Positions 25,156-47,663 of a stretch of DNA of 47,663 nt are shown piece by piece. The translations under genes were made by a program, and so were the position numbers. Position 1 is the stretch's first letter. Each line of letters starts with the position of its first letter. The DNA comes from Verrucomicrobiota bacterium (lineage in GTDB: Bacteria > Verrucomicrobiota > Verrucomicrobiia > Palsa-1439). The stretch covers positions 1 through 47,663 of the forward strand of contig VHCW01000030.1 in NCBI GenBank assembly GCA_016871575.1. Reading direction: 5' to 3'. The notes beneath the pieces were generated by a model. It ran no database searches, had not been told where the DNA came from, and was given only the letters and a program-made list of their open reading frames with translations.

Positions 25156-25755
25156 TCAGTCCTGCGGAATCGTCAGGACCTGGCCGGGATAAATCTTGTT
25201 GGGATGTTTGATTTTCTCTTTGTTCGCCTGATAAATGCGCGGCCATTTGAACGGATTGCCGTACACGCGCCCGGCAATGCGCCAGAGGGAGTCGCCCTTC
25301 TTGACGGTGTAAGCCGTCGGTTTCGGCGTCGCTTTCACCTTGGGCGGCGCCGGCTCGGCAATGGCGGGCGGCGCCGTTTCCACAATGACAGGCGGGACCA
25401 TCGGCGGCGCCGGTTCGATGACGACGGGTTGCGCCGGTGCGATGGGGACCGGCGTCATCTGCGTTTCGGTGGGCGCGGTGGCGGCCGGCGGTCCGCCGAC
25501 GAGATAGCCGCGGTTGCCCCATTGGCCACGGTCCACCCAGTAATGCTTGCGCCAAGTGGGGTAGTGGACCTTGACGAAATCGGCCCAATCCGGTTCCAGT
25601 TCGGGCTGCTGGACCACATCCAGCCCCTTCAGAAGCCGTCCTTGGGGCGGCGGTGTCTTGACCGGCTCTAATCGTTTCGGTTCCGTGGCGCAGCCGCCGG
25701 CCAACAACATGGCCGCGGCACACCCCAACGAGAAAAACTGCTGGCGACTCTTCAT
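25156..25755 (-). CDS. LysM-domain lipoprotein
   Basis: A 22-residue lipoprotein signal ends in the lipobox LLAGGC (Cys22). The middle (about 100-150) is a Pro/Ala/Val-rich linker. The C-terminal LysM domain (about 152-199: [50 protein letters not shown]) binds peptidoglycan. Residues 30-95 include a region with [23 protein letters not shown] of unknown fold. The start at 25755 has a strong aaggagg ribosome site and a matched promoter; the open frame upstream to 25905 is less likely. It is first in a LysM-phoH-ybeY operon, which pairs an envelope lipoprotein with ribosome-related genes. Confidence 0.9.
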
Positions 25756-26424: not shown

Positions 26425-28767
26425 TTACTCGAGTGTTGGCCCGGCGATTCGCTCGCCGCGTTGTTGGCGGGTCTGGTCGGCGGGATCGAACGTGCCGTAG
26501 AACAACGCGTTGGCGTCCATCCACGTCACAAGACGCTCGATTTCGCCGAGGCTGAACGCGACGTTCTTGTGGCCGCGCAGCAGCATGTTCATCAACGGGC
26601 TGCGACGCGCGCCGAAGAATTCGGGCTGCGTGAGCGGTTCGCTGTTGTTGACGCGAAAATCACCGGGCCTGCCGCCCCACGCGGAGAACGGAACGCGCGT
26701 GGCCAACGCGTTGTAGGATGACGTGTACTTGCCTTGCGGCGCGCCGGTCAGCGTGAGGCCGGCGGCGGGTTTCTGGCCGCTGTGACAGGTGACACAAAGT
26801 TTGTCCAACACGGGCTGGACGAGAATCGGGTAGCTCAACGGACGCGAGCCATCAGGGCCGGGCGCGATGTCCGACGGCGGACGTTTCAACGCGAGCGCGA
26901 CGTTGCCCGGCGTGGGCGCGCTCGTGCGCGGTTCGTGACAGCCGATGCACGAGACGTTTTCACCGGGCTGAAGATAGGTGATGCTGCGCATCGTCTGGAC
27001 GGCTTGGCCGCGTTCATCAAGCGCCTGAAACGCCAGCCCGATTCCGGCGGGCGCGCGGAAAAACGCCGAGCCGTCCGGCTCGACCGGCACGGTGCCGAGC
27101 ACTTGTTTACCGGGCGAGGCGTTGGCGAGGCCGACGGTCGGCGTGTTGGCGTGGGGCGTTGTTTTCGGAAGGACTTGGACGATGCGCAGCCGTTTGATTG
27201 TCACGTCGGGCAGATACGGCCACGCGACGCGGACGTTTTGGAGGAAGAACGTGCCGGTCGCTGGAGCCGCCGGGACGGCGGCTGCTACACCGCGCGGTGT
27301 AGTGGCGTCCGTCCCGGACGCTGTTCCGGCTAATTCGGTCGGAAGCACCGGTGGTTTCGGACGGGCGCGCAACGGCACCGGCCAGAGGCTGCTGATGTCG
27401 GGATCGCGATAGAGCAGTTCCTTGTTGCCGAAACAGTCCACAAGATAGAGGCCGAACTGGTTGGGCGGGTTGGCGCTCGGCTCGCCGATGAGCGGGTCGA
27501 AACTGTACGCCGCCAGAAAGTATTTTTCCGACAACGGTAACGGTGTCCGATAACAATGCCCCGGCCACCGCGCCTGTTCCACCGGAACCTCTGGAGCTTT
27601 TGCGACGCCGGCCGGTGCGTGCCAGAAACCTTTCCCTTTGTCGCCGTGTGAAACCGGTGCTTCGCTTTCGGGGAAGAGCGCGTCGGGCGTAAGGCGCGTG
27701 ATCGGTTCAAGGCCATCAACGCCACGCGACACGTCGAGCAGAATAATCGAGCCAGCGGTCATCGCGTGGTGGGCGGCGGCGGTGGCCATGACACGGTGCG
27801 AGCCGGGCACCGGCTTCGCCTCCCAAACGCCGACGGGGTTGAGCGTGTGATTGCCGTAGAACGCGCGGACGTTGCTGCCGTCGGGACGGACAGTCCAGAG
27901 TTGCTGGTAATACACCGCGTTCCGATCCACGTAATCCCAGCGCGTGTAAAGAACGCGCCCGTCGTTGAGCACGGCGGGATCCCACTCGTGGGTCTCGTGG
28001 AAGGAAATCGTGCGCGGGTTGGAGCCGTCGGCTTCGGCGATGGCCAGCGTGTAGGTCGGACACGGCCCGCGTCCGCACCGGTGAAATCCGCCGCGGCGTG
28101 TCGAGATGAAGATGATGCGTCCGTCCGGCAAATAACGCGGCGCAAAATCATCGAACGCGCCATCGGTGAGTTGGCGCAGTCCCCGGCCATCGGCGGACAT
28201 CTCGTACAGATGATAGAAGTGGTCAGCGTGCTCTTCGCGACTCGCGGGCACTTTCTCGACGTGGCAATACGCGAACAACACACGTTTGCCGTCGTACGAA
28301 ACTTCCGGGTGTTGGTAACTGCCGGTAAGCGCAGCGAGTTGCCGGCAATGCATGGATGTACCGGGTTCATCGAGGACGAAGATGCCGCCGCCGGGGCGGG
28401 CGCAACTGCCGGGGTATTGCGTGAGCTGGTGGCTCATAATGCTCGGCACCTGCTTGACGAACAGCAACGGGCCGGTGCGCGCCAGCGGATTGCCCAGCGC
28501 GATGCGGCGGCGAAGCTGATGGAGTTTGCGCCAGGTTTCTTCGTTGCGCGGCGCGTGGCGCAGTTGCTCCCATTCGGGTTGCTCGCAGTGCAGGTCTGCA
28601 ATCAAGGCGTCGCCGCGTTTCAACAACAGTTCGATGGCGGCGGCGTAGGTGCTGGGGTTGCGTTCGGCGCCGATGCCGTCCTGCATCCGCCAGTCGCGCT
28701 CGATCAGTGCCTGATCCGCGTGCGCAGCACAACAGCAGAACAAAACCAGCAGCAGTAACCGGTTCAT
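26425..28767 (-). CDS. Secreted hydrazine-synthase-alpha-like protein with PD40-type propeller and two heme c motifs
   Basis: A signal peptide (about 1-17) is followed by an N-terminal region and a WD40-like/PD40 beta-propeller (about 100-450), with repeats such as HPEVSYDGKRVLFAY and APRYLPDGRIIFIST. The C-terminal part carries two heme-c-attachment motifs, CIGCH (Cys607-His611) and CVTCH (Cys658-His662). This is the layout of the family that includes hydrazine synthase subunit alpha, but relatives in Planctomycetota and Verrucomicrobiota are mostly of unknown function and are not evidence of anammox. Between about 482 and 510 lies an Ala/Thr/Pro-rich insert that coincides with a palindromic DNA element. 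The start overlaps the stop of the upstream DUF4838 gene by 4 bp (ATGA). Confidence 0.82.
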   Translation of the reverse strand: MNRLLLLVLFCCCAAHADQALIERDWRMQDGIGAERNPSTYAAAIELLLKRGDALIADLHCEQPEWEQLRHAPRNEETWRKLHQLRRRIALGNPLARTGPLLFVKQVPSIMSHQLTQYPGSCARPGGGIFVLDEPGTSMHCRQLAALTGSYQHPEVSYDGKRVLFAYCHVEKVPASREEHADHFYHLYEMSADGRGLRQLTDGAFDDFAPRYLPDGRIIFISTRRGGFHRCGRGPCPTYTLAIAEADGSNPRTISFHETHEWDPAVLNDGRVLYTRWDYVDRNAVYYQQLWTVRPDGSNVRAFYGNHTLNPVGVWEAKPVPGSHRVMATAAAHHAMTAGSIILLDVSRGVDGLEPITRLTPDALFPESEAPVSHGDKGKGFWHAPAGVAKAPEVPVEQARWPGHCYRTPLPLSEKYFLAAYSFDPLIGEPSANPPNQFGLYLVDCFGNKELLYRDPDISSLWPVPLRARPKPPVLPTELAGTASGTDATTPRGVAAAVPAAPATGTFFLQNVRVAWPYLPDVTIKRLRIVQVLPKTTPHANTPTVGLANASPGKQVLGTVPVEPDGSAFFRAPAGIGLAFQALDERGQAVQTMRSITYLQPGENVSCIGCHEPRTSAPTPGNVALALKRPPSDIAPGPDGSRPLSYPILVQPVLDKLCVTCHSGQKPAAGLTLTGAPQGKYTSSYNALATRVPFSAWGGRPGDFRVNNSEPLTQPEFFGARRSPLMNMLLRGHKNVAFSLGEIERLVTWMDANALFYGTFDPADQTRQQRGERIAGPTLE
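27264..27323. repeat. Palindromic REP/MITE-like element inside a coding sequence
   Basis: The centre is a perfect 18-bp palindrome, CTACACCGCGCGGTGTAG (27285-27302). It is flanked at equal 6-bp distance by CCGGGACGG (27270-27278) and its complement CCGTCCCGG (27309-27317). The whole element would fold into a long hairpin. It lies in frame in the HzsA-like gene and encodes an Ala/Thr/Pro/Gly-rich stretch next to the conserved TGTFFLQNV. I infer insertion of a dispersed repeat; only one full copy is seen in the window. Confidence 0.7.
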
Positions 28768-42392: not shown

Positions 42393-45300
42393 CTACGGCC
42401 CAAGACGGATGCGGTAGAAGAACGATGACGCGTTTGTTGCGCCGCCGGTGTGAACGTGGTTGGTGACGCTCTCGCCGACGCCGGGCACGTAAATCACCGG
42501 GTTGAAATCAGCGAAACCAGTGCCGGGAACCGAGTTCGTCTGCACCACGTAACTCTTCCCGCCGACGGCTGTCCATGTGATGCGAATGTCGTCACCCTCG
42601 CGCGCCATGCTGACGACACGCAGGCGCGAGGCACTGTTTGTCGGGATGGTGCCAGCCTGCGACTCTTTGAGGTTCGACATCCCATCGCCGTCATTATCGC
42701 CACCGGCGGTGAGGAGGATACCGTTGTTGATGAAGGTAAAGAAGAAATTGGTGTTACCGTAGATCACGTCAATGACGCCATTGTTGACCACGGGGCCGTA
42801 GAATGCCAGTGTCGCTCCGTTGGTGGCGTACATGGTTCCATTGTTGGTCACGGTGCCGGTGAAAGCAAACTGTCCGCTGGCGACTTCCGCGATAATCACT
42901 CCTTGGTTGAACAGGTTCCCGTTGAAGATGCCGCCGCCGCGCATGGTTTGGCTGGCAACCAGTGTCATGCCTCCCCCGGTGCGTCCCGTGACATCGAGCC
43001 GTCCGCCGCTGGCGATGGTGATGGTCGGGCTGTTGGTGAGGGTGGCGTTGCCACCGAGCGCCAGCGTGCCCTCGTCAATGCGCGTGAAACCGGTGTAGAG
43101 GTTCGTGCCGCTCAAGGTGAAGGTGCCAGGGCCGGTCTTGACGATGGCGATGTTGCCGCGGATATGGGCATTGTATTCGGAATTCGTGCCGGCCGGAACA
43201 TTCAGCGTCAATGTGCTCAAAGCCATGCCGCTGTTGGTCAGGATTCCTGCGGAGGTTGCCGAGCCGTGGATCAAGCCGGCGATTTGCTGGTCGAACCCGG
43301 CCATATCGAGCGTCACGGTGCCGGGTTCGTTGAGGTTGACGGTGGTGTTGGTCGGCAACACATTGTTCGCGCCGAGGAAGAACCGTCCCTCACTGAAGAC
43401 GGTCGAGCCGCCCCAATTGTTGTTCGTGTTGGTCAGGATGATGGTACCAGCCCGGAACAGCACCCTGAAGTTGTTGCCATTGTCGGTAATCGGCCCGCTG
43501 ATGGTGAGCGTGCCGCCACTGGTGCCGCCCGAAATGCGCGCGCCGTTCACGCAGATGACAATCGGTCCGCCCCAAGTGGCGCTGCCCGAATGAACTTGCA
43601 GCCCGCCATGGAGACCGGCAGCCGCATTGAAATTGTACAGTGTGACACCGCTGATCGTCACGCCGTCGGCCAAGTTAAGAAAACCGTGGGCGCCGCCAAA
43701 GCCGGCAGTGGCAATCCCGCTGACGCCAAGCGCGAAACGATTGCTTACCAACAACTGCCCGGCATTGACCACGGTTGCGCCGCTGTAGGTGTTGGAAGCC
43801 GTCAATGTGAGGATGCGGGAACCAAGCCGGGTGAGGCCGTTGCCGATCCCGTTATCGGTGATCTGGCCGGAAATCACCGTGTCGCTGTTGATGGTCAGCG
43901 TGCGGCTCCCGTTCGTCAAGAAGACGGTGCCGGCAAAGATGAGATTGCTGCCGCCGCTCAGGATCGTGGTGTCAGCAAGGAGCACGGCTGTATTGGCGAT
44001 GACGGTATTTGTGTTGGCGGCGGAACGGATCTGGCCGCCGTTCAGATACAAGACGCCGCTTCCGATGGTTGCGCCGGCAGCCAAAATCACCTTGCCGCTG
44101 TTGAGGATCGTGTCGCCGGTGTAGGCGTTGCTGACAGAGAGATTCACGGTGCCGGGGCCGGTGATGCTCAACGGATTGTCCCCGGTGATGATGCCGGCGG
44201 CGGTCAACGTGCCGTTGTTGATCGCCCAAGTGTTCGTGCCGGCGAGCACGACCGGCGCGGTGAGCGTGTACGTCCGGTTGCTGAGAACCGTGATGCCGTT
44301 GAGGATGCTCAGTTGCGCGCCACCGGAAGCGGCCACGAAGAAACTGGCGTTGCGATTGAAGACGAGATTGCTGACGGTGCGGCTGACGGAATCCACGATG
44401 CAGGTTGAGCCGCTGTTGCCGAAGATGACGGTGGCAGCGTTGTCCGGAACCCACGACGGCGACCACTTGGAGATGTCAGACCAGTTGCCGCTGGCGCTGG
44501 CGCTGATCCACGTCGAAGTAACGGGCGGGCCGACGATGATGGTTCGCGAGTTGGTGCTGACGCCGTCCGCGCTGCTGACAATGAGCCTGACGGTGTTCGT
44601 GCCGATGCCGTCGTAGGTGTGCGTGATGGCCGTGTCGGTAATGTTGGTATCGCTGCCGTCGCCAAAGTTCCAGTTGCGGTTCGTGATGGCGCCGACAGAG
44701 AGGTCGGTGAACGAAACGGCCAGCGGCATCCCGCCGTTGGTTGGGTTGGCGGTGAAGAAGGCGATGATCGTGTCGTTGCTGTTGATGATGCCGTTGTTCG
44801 TAAATCCGTCGTTGAAGACAAGACTGCCGCCACGGGCATACAGGAGGCCATTGTTGACGACGCCCGCATCGAAGACAATCGTCGCGCCGTTGGTGGCGAC
44901 GATGCTGCCGTTATTCGTCACCGAACCGGTGAAGGCCAATCCGATGCCGGTGCCGGCGAGAACCGTGCCGTTCACCAGCACGCTGCCGGAGATGGTGCCG
45001 TTGCCGGACAACATGGCGTTTTTCTGGACGGTCAAGAGGTTGGCAATCGAGAGCGAGCCGCCAAGCAGGTTCACCGTGGCATTGTTTGCGCCGTTGCCAA
45101 TGATCAAGTTGTTGGCAAACACGCGACCGTTGTCGGCGATGATGAGCGTGTTATCGGCGCCGTTATTGCCAACGTAGAGGTTGCCCGCATTGGTCCAAAT
45201 CGAGCCGTTGCCGGTCACGAATGCGCTGTTGCCGTTGGCCGTGGTGTTGCTGCCGATGAAGCCGTCGGTGTTGAACACGACACCGCCATTCGTGATGACC

Positions 45301-47633
45301 AGCGCATTGTTAGCGCCGTCGTTGCCGACGTAGAGGATGCTTCTGTTGCTCCAGACAGAACCGGAACCGACGACGAAGACGGTATTGCTGTTGCTTCCAA
45401 GCTGGTTGCCAAGGCGCCCGACGGTGTCGAACAGCGTGCCGCCCTCGGCGATGATCAGCGTGTTGCCGGAGCCAATGTTGCCAACGTTGAAGTTGCCGCT
45501 GTTGTCCCAGGCAGAGCCGCTGCCGGTGATGAGCGCGCGGTTGTTGACGCTGGCAGCCTCACTGCCAATGAAACCGTTCAAGCTTTGCACCAGCGCGCCG
45601 TTGCTGACCGTCAACTGATTGCTCGTGCCGATGTAGCCGACGTAGAAGTTGGCCGAATTACTCCAGATGGAGCCGGCTCCCGTCACCAATGCCGCATTGT
45701 TGCTGCTGGTGGAACTGGAGCCGATCCGGGCAGAACCGCTCAGCACCAGCGCCCCATTGGTGACGGTCAACTGGTTTCCCCGGCTGTTGTTGGAACCGAC
45801 AAACAGATTCGATGCATTGCTCCAGACCGAACCGCTGTCGGTGACCAACACCAAGTTGCCGCCCGTGCCGCCATCGTAGCCGATGTAGCCGTGCAGGTCT
45901 TGCACCACCGCGCCGTTGCTGATGGTCAACTGATTGCTGGTGCCATTCATTCGGACGCTGTTGGCGGGGAGATTCCATAGCGAGCCGGGATCGGTGACGA
46001 GCGCCACGTTGTTGCTGCTGCTTTCGTAGCGACCGATCCAAGCGACGCTGGTGTTTGCGACGCCGCCATTACTGATCGTCAGCGAGTTGCCAGAGCCGTA
46101 GCGACCGATGAATAAATCGCTGGTGGTTGTCCAAATGGAACCCGTACCTGCGATAATGACAGCGTTATTGTTGGCGCCATTGGTATATCCGAGGTAGCAG
46201 ATGGCGCTGTTCACAGCGCCGCCGTTGGCAATGGTCAGCATGTTGCCGGAGCCGGCGTAACCGACGTGGAACCAAGTGCCCGATATGTTCCAGAGCGAAC
46301 CGGAGCCGGTGACGATCATGCGATTGTTGTCATTGTCGCGGCCAATAACACCATCACTACTGCAGAATACCTGGCCTTGGTTGGTGATAATCACCGTGTT
46401 GTTCGCGCCCTCGAAGCCGAGATAAAGCTTGCCGTTGATGCGCCAGACCGAACCAGAGTCGCTAATGCTGACGACGTTATCGTTGGCGTTGGTGTATTGG
46501 CCAACATAACCATCGTCGCTGAACACCGCGCCGCCGTTGGTGACGACCAGCGTATTGCCGGGACCGTAGCGTCCGACCACGAAGCCGGCCGAGTTTGTCC
46601 AAATGGAACCGGGACCGGTCACCGTGACCGTGTTGTTGCTTGAATCAGTAGTGTAGGCGATGTAGCCGACTACATTTGCCAGTTGCGCCCCTCCGGCAAT
46701 CAACAGGCTGTTGCCGGATGTGTTGGTTCCGACCAAGAAGTTCCCTTGTTGCCGCCAAAGCCCGTTGCCCGTGGCGATGACCACGCCGCCGGTGGTTGCG
46801 GCACCGATCTGGTAGTTCTTCGTCAGCAATACGCCACCGGCAAAACTCACCGTGGCCGTTCCATTGCCGCCGAGCGTCACGGGAACCACCGTCCCATCCA
46901 GAGTGCCCGTGTTGATTGCCAGTTCACCGTCCACCTCCAGCGTCCCAAATCCGCCAGCGCCCGCTGTCAGCGTCACACCGCCGATGCTGAGCCGGCCTCC
47001 CGGACCGACCACGACGTTGACCATCGCCCACGACGGCGTCTCCACCGACAACGTATTCGTCGAGCCATCCGGCGCGGAGACCATCACAAACCAGTTCGTC
47101 AAAGTCCACGGCGCCAATACCGGCGTCTGAGAATCTACTGTCACGGTCTTGGTGTTGGCATTGGCGATCACCAAATAGGACTGCGTGTTTGTGGGAGCCA
47201 CTCCCAGCGACCAGCGAGCGTCTTCCCGCCACAGGCCATTGCCGGCGTCAATCCACGCGTTGGTGGTATCGGTCACGTTCTGGTAGGAGCCGTGGACGAC
47301 CAGACTGCCACCGGCGAAATCCGCCGTGCCCAGATTGAAAACAGTGCCAAAAAACTCGGCCACGCCGCCATTGACCGCGCGGAGCGTGCCGTAACTGACG
47401 ACGTTGCCCGCCACGCTCAACGTTCCTCCGTCGGCGCTCAGTGTTCCCCAATTCGCCACTCCCCCGGTGATGGTGCCCGAGCCGGCCACTGCGTTGCCAT
47501 TGGAAATGCCCAGCGAGGAAACCGACAAGGTTCCGTGGGCGCATCTTGACACTGCCACTATCATGGGGGCGTGAACGGCACCCCACCCACGTCTCACGAA
47601 CCACCAACCGTGAGAGGACCATGAACACATCAT
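42393..47633 (-). CDS. Giant repeat-rich secreted-type protein (autotransporter-associated beta-strand repeats, PKD domain); N-terminus uncertain
   Basis: The frame encodes about 1746 residues. Residues about 45-290 are Gly/Asn/Thr-rich beta strands. Residues about 289-846 hold about eleven repeats of roughly 52 residues (see the repeat feature). A PKD domain follows at about 955-1035 (NRNWNFGDGSDTNITDTAITHTYDGIGTNTVRL). Residues 1040-1600 carry autotransporter-associated beta-strand repeats, and the tail has DNDGDGMSNLKE with a C-terminal sandwich ending in FFYRIRLGP. No outer-membrane beta-barrel domain is seen. The first 34 residues (Trp/Arg-rich, no signal peptide) do not look native, and the frame has no stop to the window edge. 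The true start is therefore probably outside the window or lost. It could be a surface adhesin or a secreted structural protein. Confidence 0.75.
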   Translation of the reverse strand: MMCSWSSHGWWFVRRGWGAVHAPMIVAVSRCAHGTLSVSSLGISNGNAVAGSGTITGGVANWGTLSADGGTLSVAGNVVSYGTLRAVNGGVAEFFGTVFNLGTADFAGGSLVVHGSYQNVTDTTNAWIDAGNGLWREDARWSLGVAPTNTQSYLVIANANTKTVTVDSQTPVLAPWTLTNWFVMVSAPDGSTNTLSVETPSWAMVNVVVGPGGRLSIGGVTLTAGAGGFGTLEVDGELAINTGTLDGTVVPVTLGGNGTATVSFAGGVLLTKNYQIGAATTGGVVIATGNGLWRQQGNFLVGTNTSGNSLLIAGGAQLANVVGYIAYTTDSSNNTVTVTGPGSIWTNSAGFVVGRYGPGNTLVVTNGGAVFSDDGYVGQYTNANDNVVSISDSGSVWRINGKLYLGFEGANNTVIITNQGQVFCSSDGVIGRDNDNNRMIVTGSGSLWNISGTWFHVGYAGSGNMLTIANGGAVNSAICYLGYTNGANNNAVIIAGTGSIWTTTSDLFIGRYGSGNSLTISNGGVANTSVAWIGRYESSSNNVALVTDPGSLWNLPANSVRMNGTSNQLTISNGAVVQDLHGYIGYDGGTGGNLVLVTDSGSVWSNASNLFVGSNNSRGNQLTVTNGALVLSGSARIGSSSTSSNNAALVTGAGSIWSNSANFYVGYIGTSNQLTVSNGALVQSLNGFIGSEAASVNNRALITGSGSAWDNSGNFNVGNIGSGNTLIIAEGGTLFDTVGRLGNQLGSNSNTVFVVGSGSVWSNRSILYVGNDGANNALVITNGGVVFNTDGFIGSNTTANGNSAFVTGNGSIWTNAGNLYVGNNGADNTLIIADNGRVFANNLIIGNGANNATVNLLGGSLSIANLLTVQKNAMLSGNGTISGSVLVNGTVLAGTGIGLAFTGSVTNNGSIVATNGATIVFDAGVVNNGLLYARGGSLVFNDGFTNNGIINSNDTIIAFFTANPTNGGMPLAVSFTDLSVGAITNRNWNFGDGSDTNITDTAITHTYDGIGTNTVRLIVSSADGVSTNSRTIIVGPPVTSTWISASASGNWSDISKWSPSWVPDNAATVIFGNSGSTCIVDSVSRTVSNLVFNRNASFFVAASGGAQLSILNGITVLSNRTYTLTAPVVLAGTNTWAINNGTLTAAGIITGDNPLSITGPGTVNLSVSNAYTGDTILNSGKVILAAGATIGSGVLYLNGGQIRSAANTNTVIANTAVLLADTTILSGGSNLIFAGTVFLTNGSRTLTINSDTVISGQITDNGIGNGLTRLGSRILTLTASNTYSGATVVNAGQLLVSNRFALGVSGIATAGFGGAHGFLNLADGVTISGVTLYNFNAAAGLHGGLQVHSGSATWGGPIVICVNGARISGGTSGGTLTISGPITDNGNNFRVLFRAGTIILTNTNNNWGGSTVFSEGRFFLGANNVLPTNTTVNLNEPGTVTLDMAGFDQQIAGLIHGSATSAGILTNSGMALSTLTLNVPAGTNSEYNAHIRGNIAIVKTGPGTFTLSGTNLYTGFTRIDEGTLALGGNATLTNSPTITIASGGRLDVTGRTGGGMTLVASQTMRGGGIFNGNLFNQGVIIAEVASGQFAFTGTVTNNGTMYATNGATLAFYGPVVNNGVIDVIYGNTNFFFTFINNGILLTAGGDNDGDGMSNLKESQAGTIPTNSASRLRVVSMAREGDDIRITWTAVGGKSYVVQTNSVPGTGFADFNPVIYVPGVGESVTNHVHTGGATNASSFFYRIRLGP
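45096..46769 (-). repeat. Tandem array of about eleven 52-residue (156-bp) repeats in the giant protein
   Basis: Each unit reads like GSGSxWxNxxxLxVGxxGxxNxLxIxNGG followed by a GxIG segment and NNxVxVT. The conserved Trp falls at residues 293, 345, 397, 448, 501, 553, 604, 657, 709, 761 and 813, giving steps of 51-53. Copies are divergent in DNA, so the array is old rather than freshly amplified. Confidence 0.85.
47592..47615 (+). other. Hairpin overlapping a possible plus-strand ribosome site
   Basis: A 7-bp stem, TCTCACG (47592-47598) and CGTGAGA (47609-47615), with a 10-nt loop partly covers the purine-rich stretch gagagga (47612-47618) just before the ATG at 47621. It could be a translation-control hairpin or part of an element end. 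Short, so chance is possible. Confidence 0.3.
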
Positions 47634-47663
47634 CAGAACCAGCCCGCTCGCTGCGGGAACTGG
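47621..47663 (+). CDS. Possible start of a plus-strand gene running off the window
   Basis: An ATG preceded by gagaggacc opens a frame of 14 codons (MNTSSEPARSLREL) that continues to the window edge. If real, it is head-to-head with, and would overlap, the odd N-terminus of the giant protein, supporting a disrupted or truncated 5' end there. Too short to identify. Confidence 0.25.
   Translation, partial: MNTSSEPARSLREL

Follow-up and report, generated by a model that had tools for sequence, protein, structure and literature searches.

Surface placement of giant proteins in Verrucomicrobia is poorly described. The repeat TIGR04393 is already known from both barrel-bearing and barrel-less proteins. 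Type Va autotransporters join a beta-rich repeat passenger to a translocator barrel (PF03797), and type IX secretion in Bacteroidota acts through a terminal beta-sandwich of ~100 residues that is found on many unrelated exported proteins. For GlyGly-CTERM and PEP-CTERM, unrelated proteins share only their C-terminus and homologues swap sorting signals (PMC3237569). Here we show that, in a giant repeat protein of a Verrucomicrobiota bacterium, the place that sister proteins give to a barrel or to PEP-CTERM is held by a phylum-concentrated C-terminal domain with a predicted fibronectin-III-like fold.

The window, meaning the whole stretch of DNA analysed (47,663 nucleotides), is the complete contig C30 of a draft genome with 257 contigs. 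The repeat-protein gene runs on the minus strand from position 42393 upward in a frame that is open to the contig end. The first-pass annotation of this DNA had recognized the features of the gene, left its strand unstated, and taken a 1746-aa ORF with its start at 47633 for the whole protein; this 5' end is not a gene start, as the ORF continues past the edge of the contig, and the final 127 bases of the contig lie outside the gene. The features are as follows.

42393..47536, minus strand: giant repeat-protein gene, 3' part (5'-truncated), frame open to the contig end and coding up to the target-site duplication
47537..47663, plus strand: ISKra4-like insertion sequence, left end, including the transposase start ATGAACACATCATCAGAACC..., recognized by a terminal inverted repeat in common with the C72 end and by a 45-base recurrence
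47528..47536 and C72:189-197, no strand assigned: target-site duplication of 9 bp, reading ACGGAACCT on the gene strand, with identical flanks on both contigs
45042..46757, minus strand: eleven-unit TIGR04393 array, 51-53 residues per unit, spanning ORF residues 293-864, with a predicted all-beta structure
44538..44726, minus strand: PKD domain, ORF residues 970-1032 (PF18911, E 4e-11)
43053..43148, minus strand: best PATR/TIGR02601 beta-strand repeat by profile match, ORF residues 1496-1527
42639..42698, minus strand: TSP3-like calcium loop DNDGDGMSNLKESQAGTIPTN (PF18884, 19.2 bits, under the 25-bit cut-off)
42396..42716, minus strand: C-terminal tail, TSP3-like loop plus sandwich with a predicted fibronectin-III-like fold, ending at the stop codon

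The eleven Trp-anchored units of the array begin at ORF residues 293, 345, 397, 448, 501, 553, 604, 657, 709, 761 and 813, and self-identity of the array at lag 52 amounts to 0.277, with a maximum of 0.152 across all lags in 500 shuffles. TIGR04393 matches the ORF in 10 stretches (E 8e-64, 211 bits, curated cut-off 23 bits), so that by profile match the 52-residue unit is this named T5SS/PEP-CTERM-associated repeat, a family that the first-pass annotation missed while describing the eleven-fold array and its period of 51-53 residues correctly. The PKD domain and the autotransporter-type strand repeats that it had also proposed, together with the profile searches for them, were both recovered in the ORF: PKD_4 matches residues 970-1032 at E 4e-11 and PATR (PF12951) matches at E 1e-13 in the Pfam search, and TIGR02601 matches at E 8e-14 in a profile search. 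AlphaFold2 modelled three array units as all-beta (pLDDT 90.6, pTM 0.89), and a fold search of the array against solved structures returned no significant match, the best being autotransporter and ice-binding beta-helices (E 0.2-0.4). The protein thus resembles TIGR04393/PATR proteins in its unit and period, its strand repeats and the Sec signal peptide of its 5' half, and differs from them by ending in a TSP3-like loop plus sandwich and by adding a PKD domain. The novelty sits in the tail, and the repeats are not novel.

The 5' half of the gene was found on another contig. The last 45 bases of C30 recur identically at four other contig ends (five including C30), and the partner end of the same element occurs at six contig ends, with 188 bases (100 in one case). 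One of these partner ends, C72:1-188, immediately follows a signal peptide and 14-15 further TIGR04393 units. The element ends of C72 and C30 share the terminal inverted repeat GGGCGYATYTKGRCACTGCCAC; read on the element's strand, the C30 end encodes the start MNTSSEPARSLREL, and the C72 end encodes a transposase C-terminus that weakly matches NF033572 (ISKra4; E 1.3e-6) over 53 residues only, below the whole-protein cut-off. The 9 bp adjoining the element are ACGGAACCT on C72 and C30 alike. Exact 9-bp matches were observed in three of 30 right-left end pairings (C72-C30, C46-C70 and C62-C90), and the remaining pairings involving C72 or C30 mismatch at 6-9 of 9 positions. When the duplication is counted once, the rejoined halves give exactly 2525 codons in frame, and an uninterrupted 1918-residue protein from a genome of the same family (G291:C34) aligns gap-free across the junction with 38% identity over 328 columns. 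Since the element has inserted at least six times in this genome, C72 and C30 could be two separate genes, each struck by its own copy; however, the identical flanks of this one pairing, the reading frame kept across the junction and the intact relative spanning it make such a coincidence very improbable. As judged from these sequences, the gene has been cut in two by an ISKra4-like element that duplicated 9 bp of its target, and the C30 ORF is the 3' fragment of the gene.

With the flanking end assigned to an insertion sequence, the start at 47633 and the first ~43 residues of the 1746-aa ORF belong to the element and form a false N-terminus, a reminder that at a contig end the apparent N-terminus of a protein may be transposon sequence. 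The signal peptide that the first-pass annotation lacked is the one opening the C72 half, MNCIKRSVAVLVCAFALAAAARAED, which by eye has the features of a Sec signal peptide. The split implies that the allele in this assembly is broken, its N-terminal piece being exported but tail-less and its C-terminal piece lacking a signal peptide; the draft assembly may conceal a mixed population.

The absence of a barrel, already pointed out from the letters alone, was upheld: the Pfam search found no PF03797 in the ORF, which in this respect is unlike a type Va autotransporter, and the same library detected PF03797 in the C61 sister protein of this genome (E 1e-51) and in eight array proteins of relatives (E 7e-52 or better). 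The C61 protein, a 3485-aa frame at G000:C61, 3285-13739 on the plus strand, is a complete type Va autotransporter combining ~31 copies of the TIGR04393 unit with a PF03797 barrel. Likewise, no PF07589 match was obtained in the ORF by Pfam search, with positive controls in sister proteins, and its tail carries no PEP motif, transmembrane helix or basic C-terminus, in contrast to PEP-CTERM proteins, whose signal takes the same C-terminal place in sister array proteins. Among the sampled array proteins, nine end in a PF03797 barrel, four in PEP-CTERM (in one case scoring slightly below the Pfam cut-off) and three in a sandwich tail, two have other ends, and four run off the sampled stretch. The sandwich-ended relatives, G291:C34 and G291:C11, have neither calcium loop nor barrel (profile E 8e-9 and 7e-8). 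Proteins with this repeat passenger therefore end in no fewer than three different ways. Two exosortase-family genes (C21:29343-29621 and C52:3920-4207) indicate that this genome probably has a PEP-CTERM system alongside its tail proteins. In addition, the array protein G289:C7 of the same genus is apparently broken by a frameshift that separates its array frame (2184 residues) from its barrel frame (1126 residues); giant array genes may often be disrupted or mis-assembled.

The tail contains the DNDGDG motif and the sandwich that had been noticed at the outset, and AlphaFold2 models it as a six-stranded sandwich (mean pLDDT 86.8), predicting a fibronectin-III-like fold. A fold search against the PDB gave no match reaching E 0.001; the best relevant sequence match is to the fibronectin-III-like protein 3mpc (E 0.001), accompanied by weak matches to glucanase/chitosanase domains. 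PDB profile matches to Toxin A repeats and calmodulin were judged to be chance or loop matches. Pfam and NCBIfam hold no model of the sandwich and only the calcium loop scores (PF18884 at 19.2 bits, the cut-off being 25 bits); matches to NCBIfam Amuc_1099, seen in 20 of 41 tails, were dropped, because they span only the 24-residue calcium loop and fall below the cut-off. The DxDxDG calcium loop ahead of the sandwich is shared with the bacterial TSP3 repeat (PF18884), yet it makes up only the first ~25 residues of the tail, and the two G291 array proteins have the sandwich without it. Our literature search, limited to open-licence papers, retrieved no description of the tail.

A search for recurrence of the tail found it to end seven proteins of this genome at E < 1e-33 (on C16, C18, C21, C30, C67, C156 and C180), so it is not unique to the repeat protein; those on C21 and C180 resemble each other and the seven, one of which is a subtilase, are otherwise mostly unrelated. 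Three weaker variants in this genome (C64, C99 and C120) are also terminal. For complete tails in closed frames, pooled across this genome and others and including a few near-duplicate loci, the distance from tail end to stop codon is at most 12 residues in 72 of 76 tails, and the other four copies, in three proteins, are internal. Profile matches that cover no more than the calcium loop, in Bacteroidota, Myxococcota and others, are mostly internal. The tail proteins carry subtilase, DUF11, laminin-G-like, CotH, glycosidase, RCC1 and DUF362 domains, and by a crude hydrophobicity test signal-peptide-like N-termini were present in 20 of 26 tail proteins compared with 67 of 238 neighbouring frames (Fisher p 2e-6). 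With 72 of 76 copies terminal, diverse Pfam content and signal-peptide enrichment, the tail behaves as a domain common only at the C-terminus of unrelated exported proteins. Two DUF362-type tail proteins of this genome carry an N-terminal membrane segment and so may need no surface tag. The tail was detected in 126 of 289 genomes sampled from Verrucomicrobiota and in none of 148 Bacteroidota genomes, and the named full-tail matches of a contig search with a single tail sequence as query almost all belong to Verrucomicrobiota in the broad sense. Two loci, L063 and L064, are apparently one and the same, labelled Verrucomicrobia (ADurb.Bin018) and Armatimonadota (USMO_maxbin.175), which probably reflects a mis-binned or mislabelled genome.

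Together, these observations make the tail a good candidate for a C-terminal targeting domain specific to this phylum. The full protein would consist of a signal peptide, 14-15 repeats, a spacer, 11 repeats, PKD domain, PATR block, TSP3 loop and sandwich tail; it would be exported through Sec as a beta-rich protein and is probably surface-exposed. By the same logic as for GlyGly-CTERM and PEP-CTERM, the tail may place or keep such proteins at the surface via partner machinery, by analogy with type IX C-terminal domains. We assign a probability of about 50% to this account as a whole, i.e., a Sec-exported repeat protein of ~2525 residues, a split gene and a tail for surface placement. The earlier suggestion of a phylum-peculiar sorting or surface-attachment signal is accordingly strengthened as regards recurrence on unrelated proteins and concentration in one phylum, and sorting or anchoring itself keeps the rank of a candidate function; neither of the two outcomes named beforehand as counting against it, a predicted barrel or a tail confined to this protein, came up. 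Among the known signals, the globular type IX domain resembles the tail more than PEP-CTERM and GlyGly-CTERM do, whose membrane helix the tail does not have. Unlike a type IX system, however, SprA (PF14349, SprA_N) was found in none of 20 genomes including this one, by a query that finds it in three of three Bacteroidota; no T9SS sorting-domain family matches the tail in Pfam/NCBIfam or appears among the best 50 PDB fold matches, none of which reaches E 0.001.

The fibronectin-III-like fold is commonly used for ordinary accessory domains, and the tail might be one of these, binding glycans or proteins or stabilizing its carriers and often placed last in this phylum; in that case Sec would export the protein, which would be held at the surface either by its repeats or not at all. 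The predicted fold with its weak matches to an Fn3 protein and to glucanase/chitosanase domains, the strong divergence of the tails (mean column identity 28%), the four internal copies and the carriers with subtilase, lectin-like and glycosidase domains are all in keeping with such a role, and no partner translocon or processing enzyme was found that would favour targeting. Nevertheless, an accessory domain would not readily account for the almost constant spacing between tail and stop codon in 72 of 76 copies, nor for a tail that occupies the place of two known C-terminal sorting or anchoring devices within one repeat family. We regard this reading as nearly as likely as the targeting reading. 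A bolder version of the latter, in which the tail would be the recognition domain of an undescribed Verrucomicrobiota outer-membrane secretion or surface-attachment pathway, analogous to type IX and substituting for barrel or PEP-CTERM, appears unlikely at present. It is less probable still that the missing barrel merely reflects decay or an assembly artefact, an ancestral, normal autotransporter having been rearranged so as to lose its barrel. Such a history would fit the insertion-sequence break in the gene and the sisters with barrels in this genome and genus, yet the gene closes with a conserved, intact domain and a stop codon, and two uninterrupted array proteins of a relative, G291:C34 and G291:C11, are barrel-less as well and finish with a related sandwich.

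Under the targeting reading, the tail offers a concrete handle on surface placement in this phylum, as it is without a Pfam/NCBIfam model, is present in 126 of the 289 genomes and is interchangeable with two known C-terminal devices. A profile of tail-positive versus tail-negative genomes could reveal a partner protein, following the precedent of phylogenetic profiling for the exosortase and rhombosortase partners (PMC3237569).

Further observations concern the element and the surroundings of the gene. Right ends of the ISKra4-like element lie on C46, C54, C62, C67, C72 and C124, and left ends on C30, C70 (both ends), C84 and C90, each of the at least six insertions breaking the assembly. The C54-C84 flanks share 8 bases, which, with the exact 9-bp pairs C46-C70 and C62-C90, suggests that several scaffolds are joinable. 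Three mutually similar proteins with an ADITPDRPV-type motif stand in a row upstream of the C72 half. Downstream of the gene, on the minus strand between window positions 28764 and 42316, are genes for two DUF4838/GH67N-like proteins, an S15 peptidase, a Tat-signal M19 dipeptidase and a ceramidase-like protein, and a 24-base tandem repeat of 2.2 copies is located at window positions 25342-25395.
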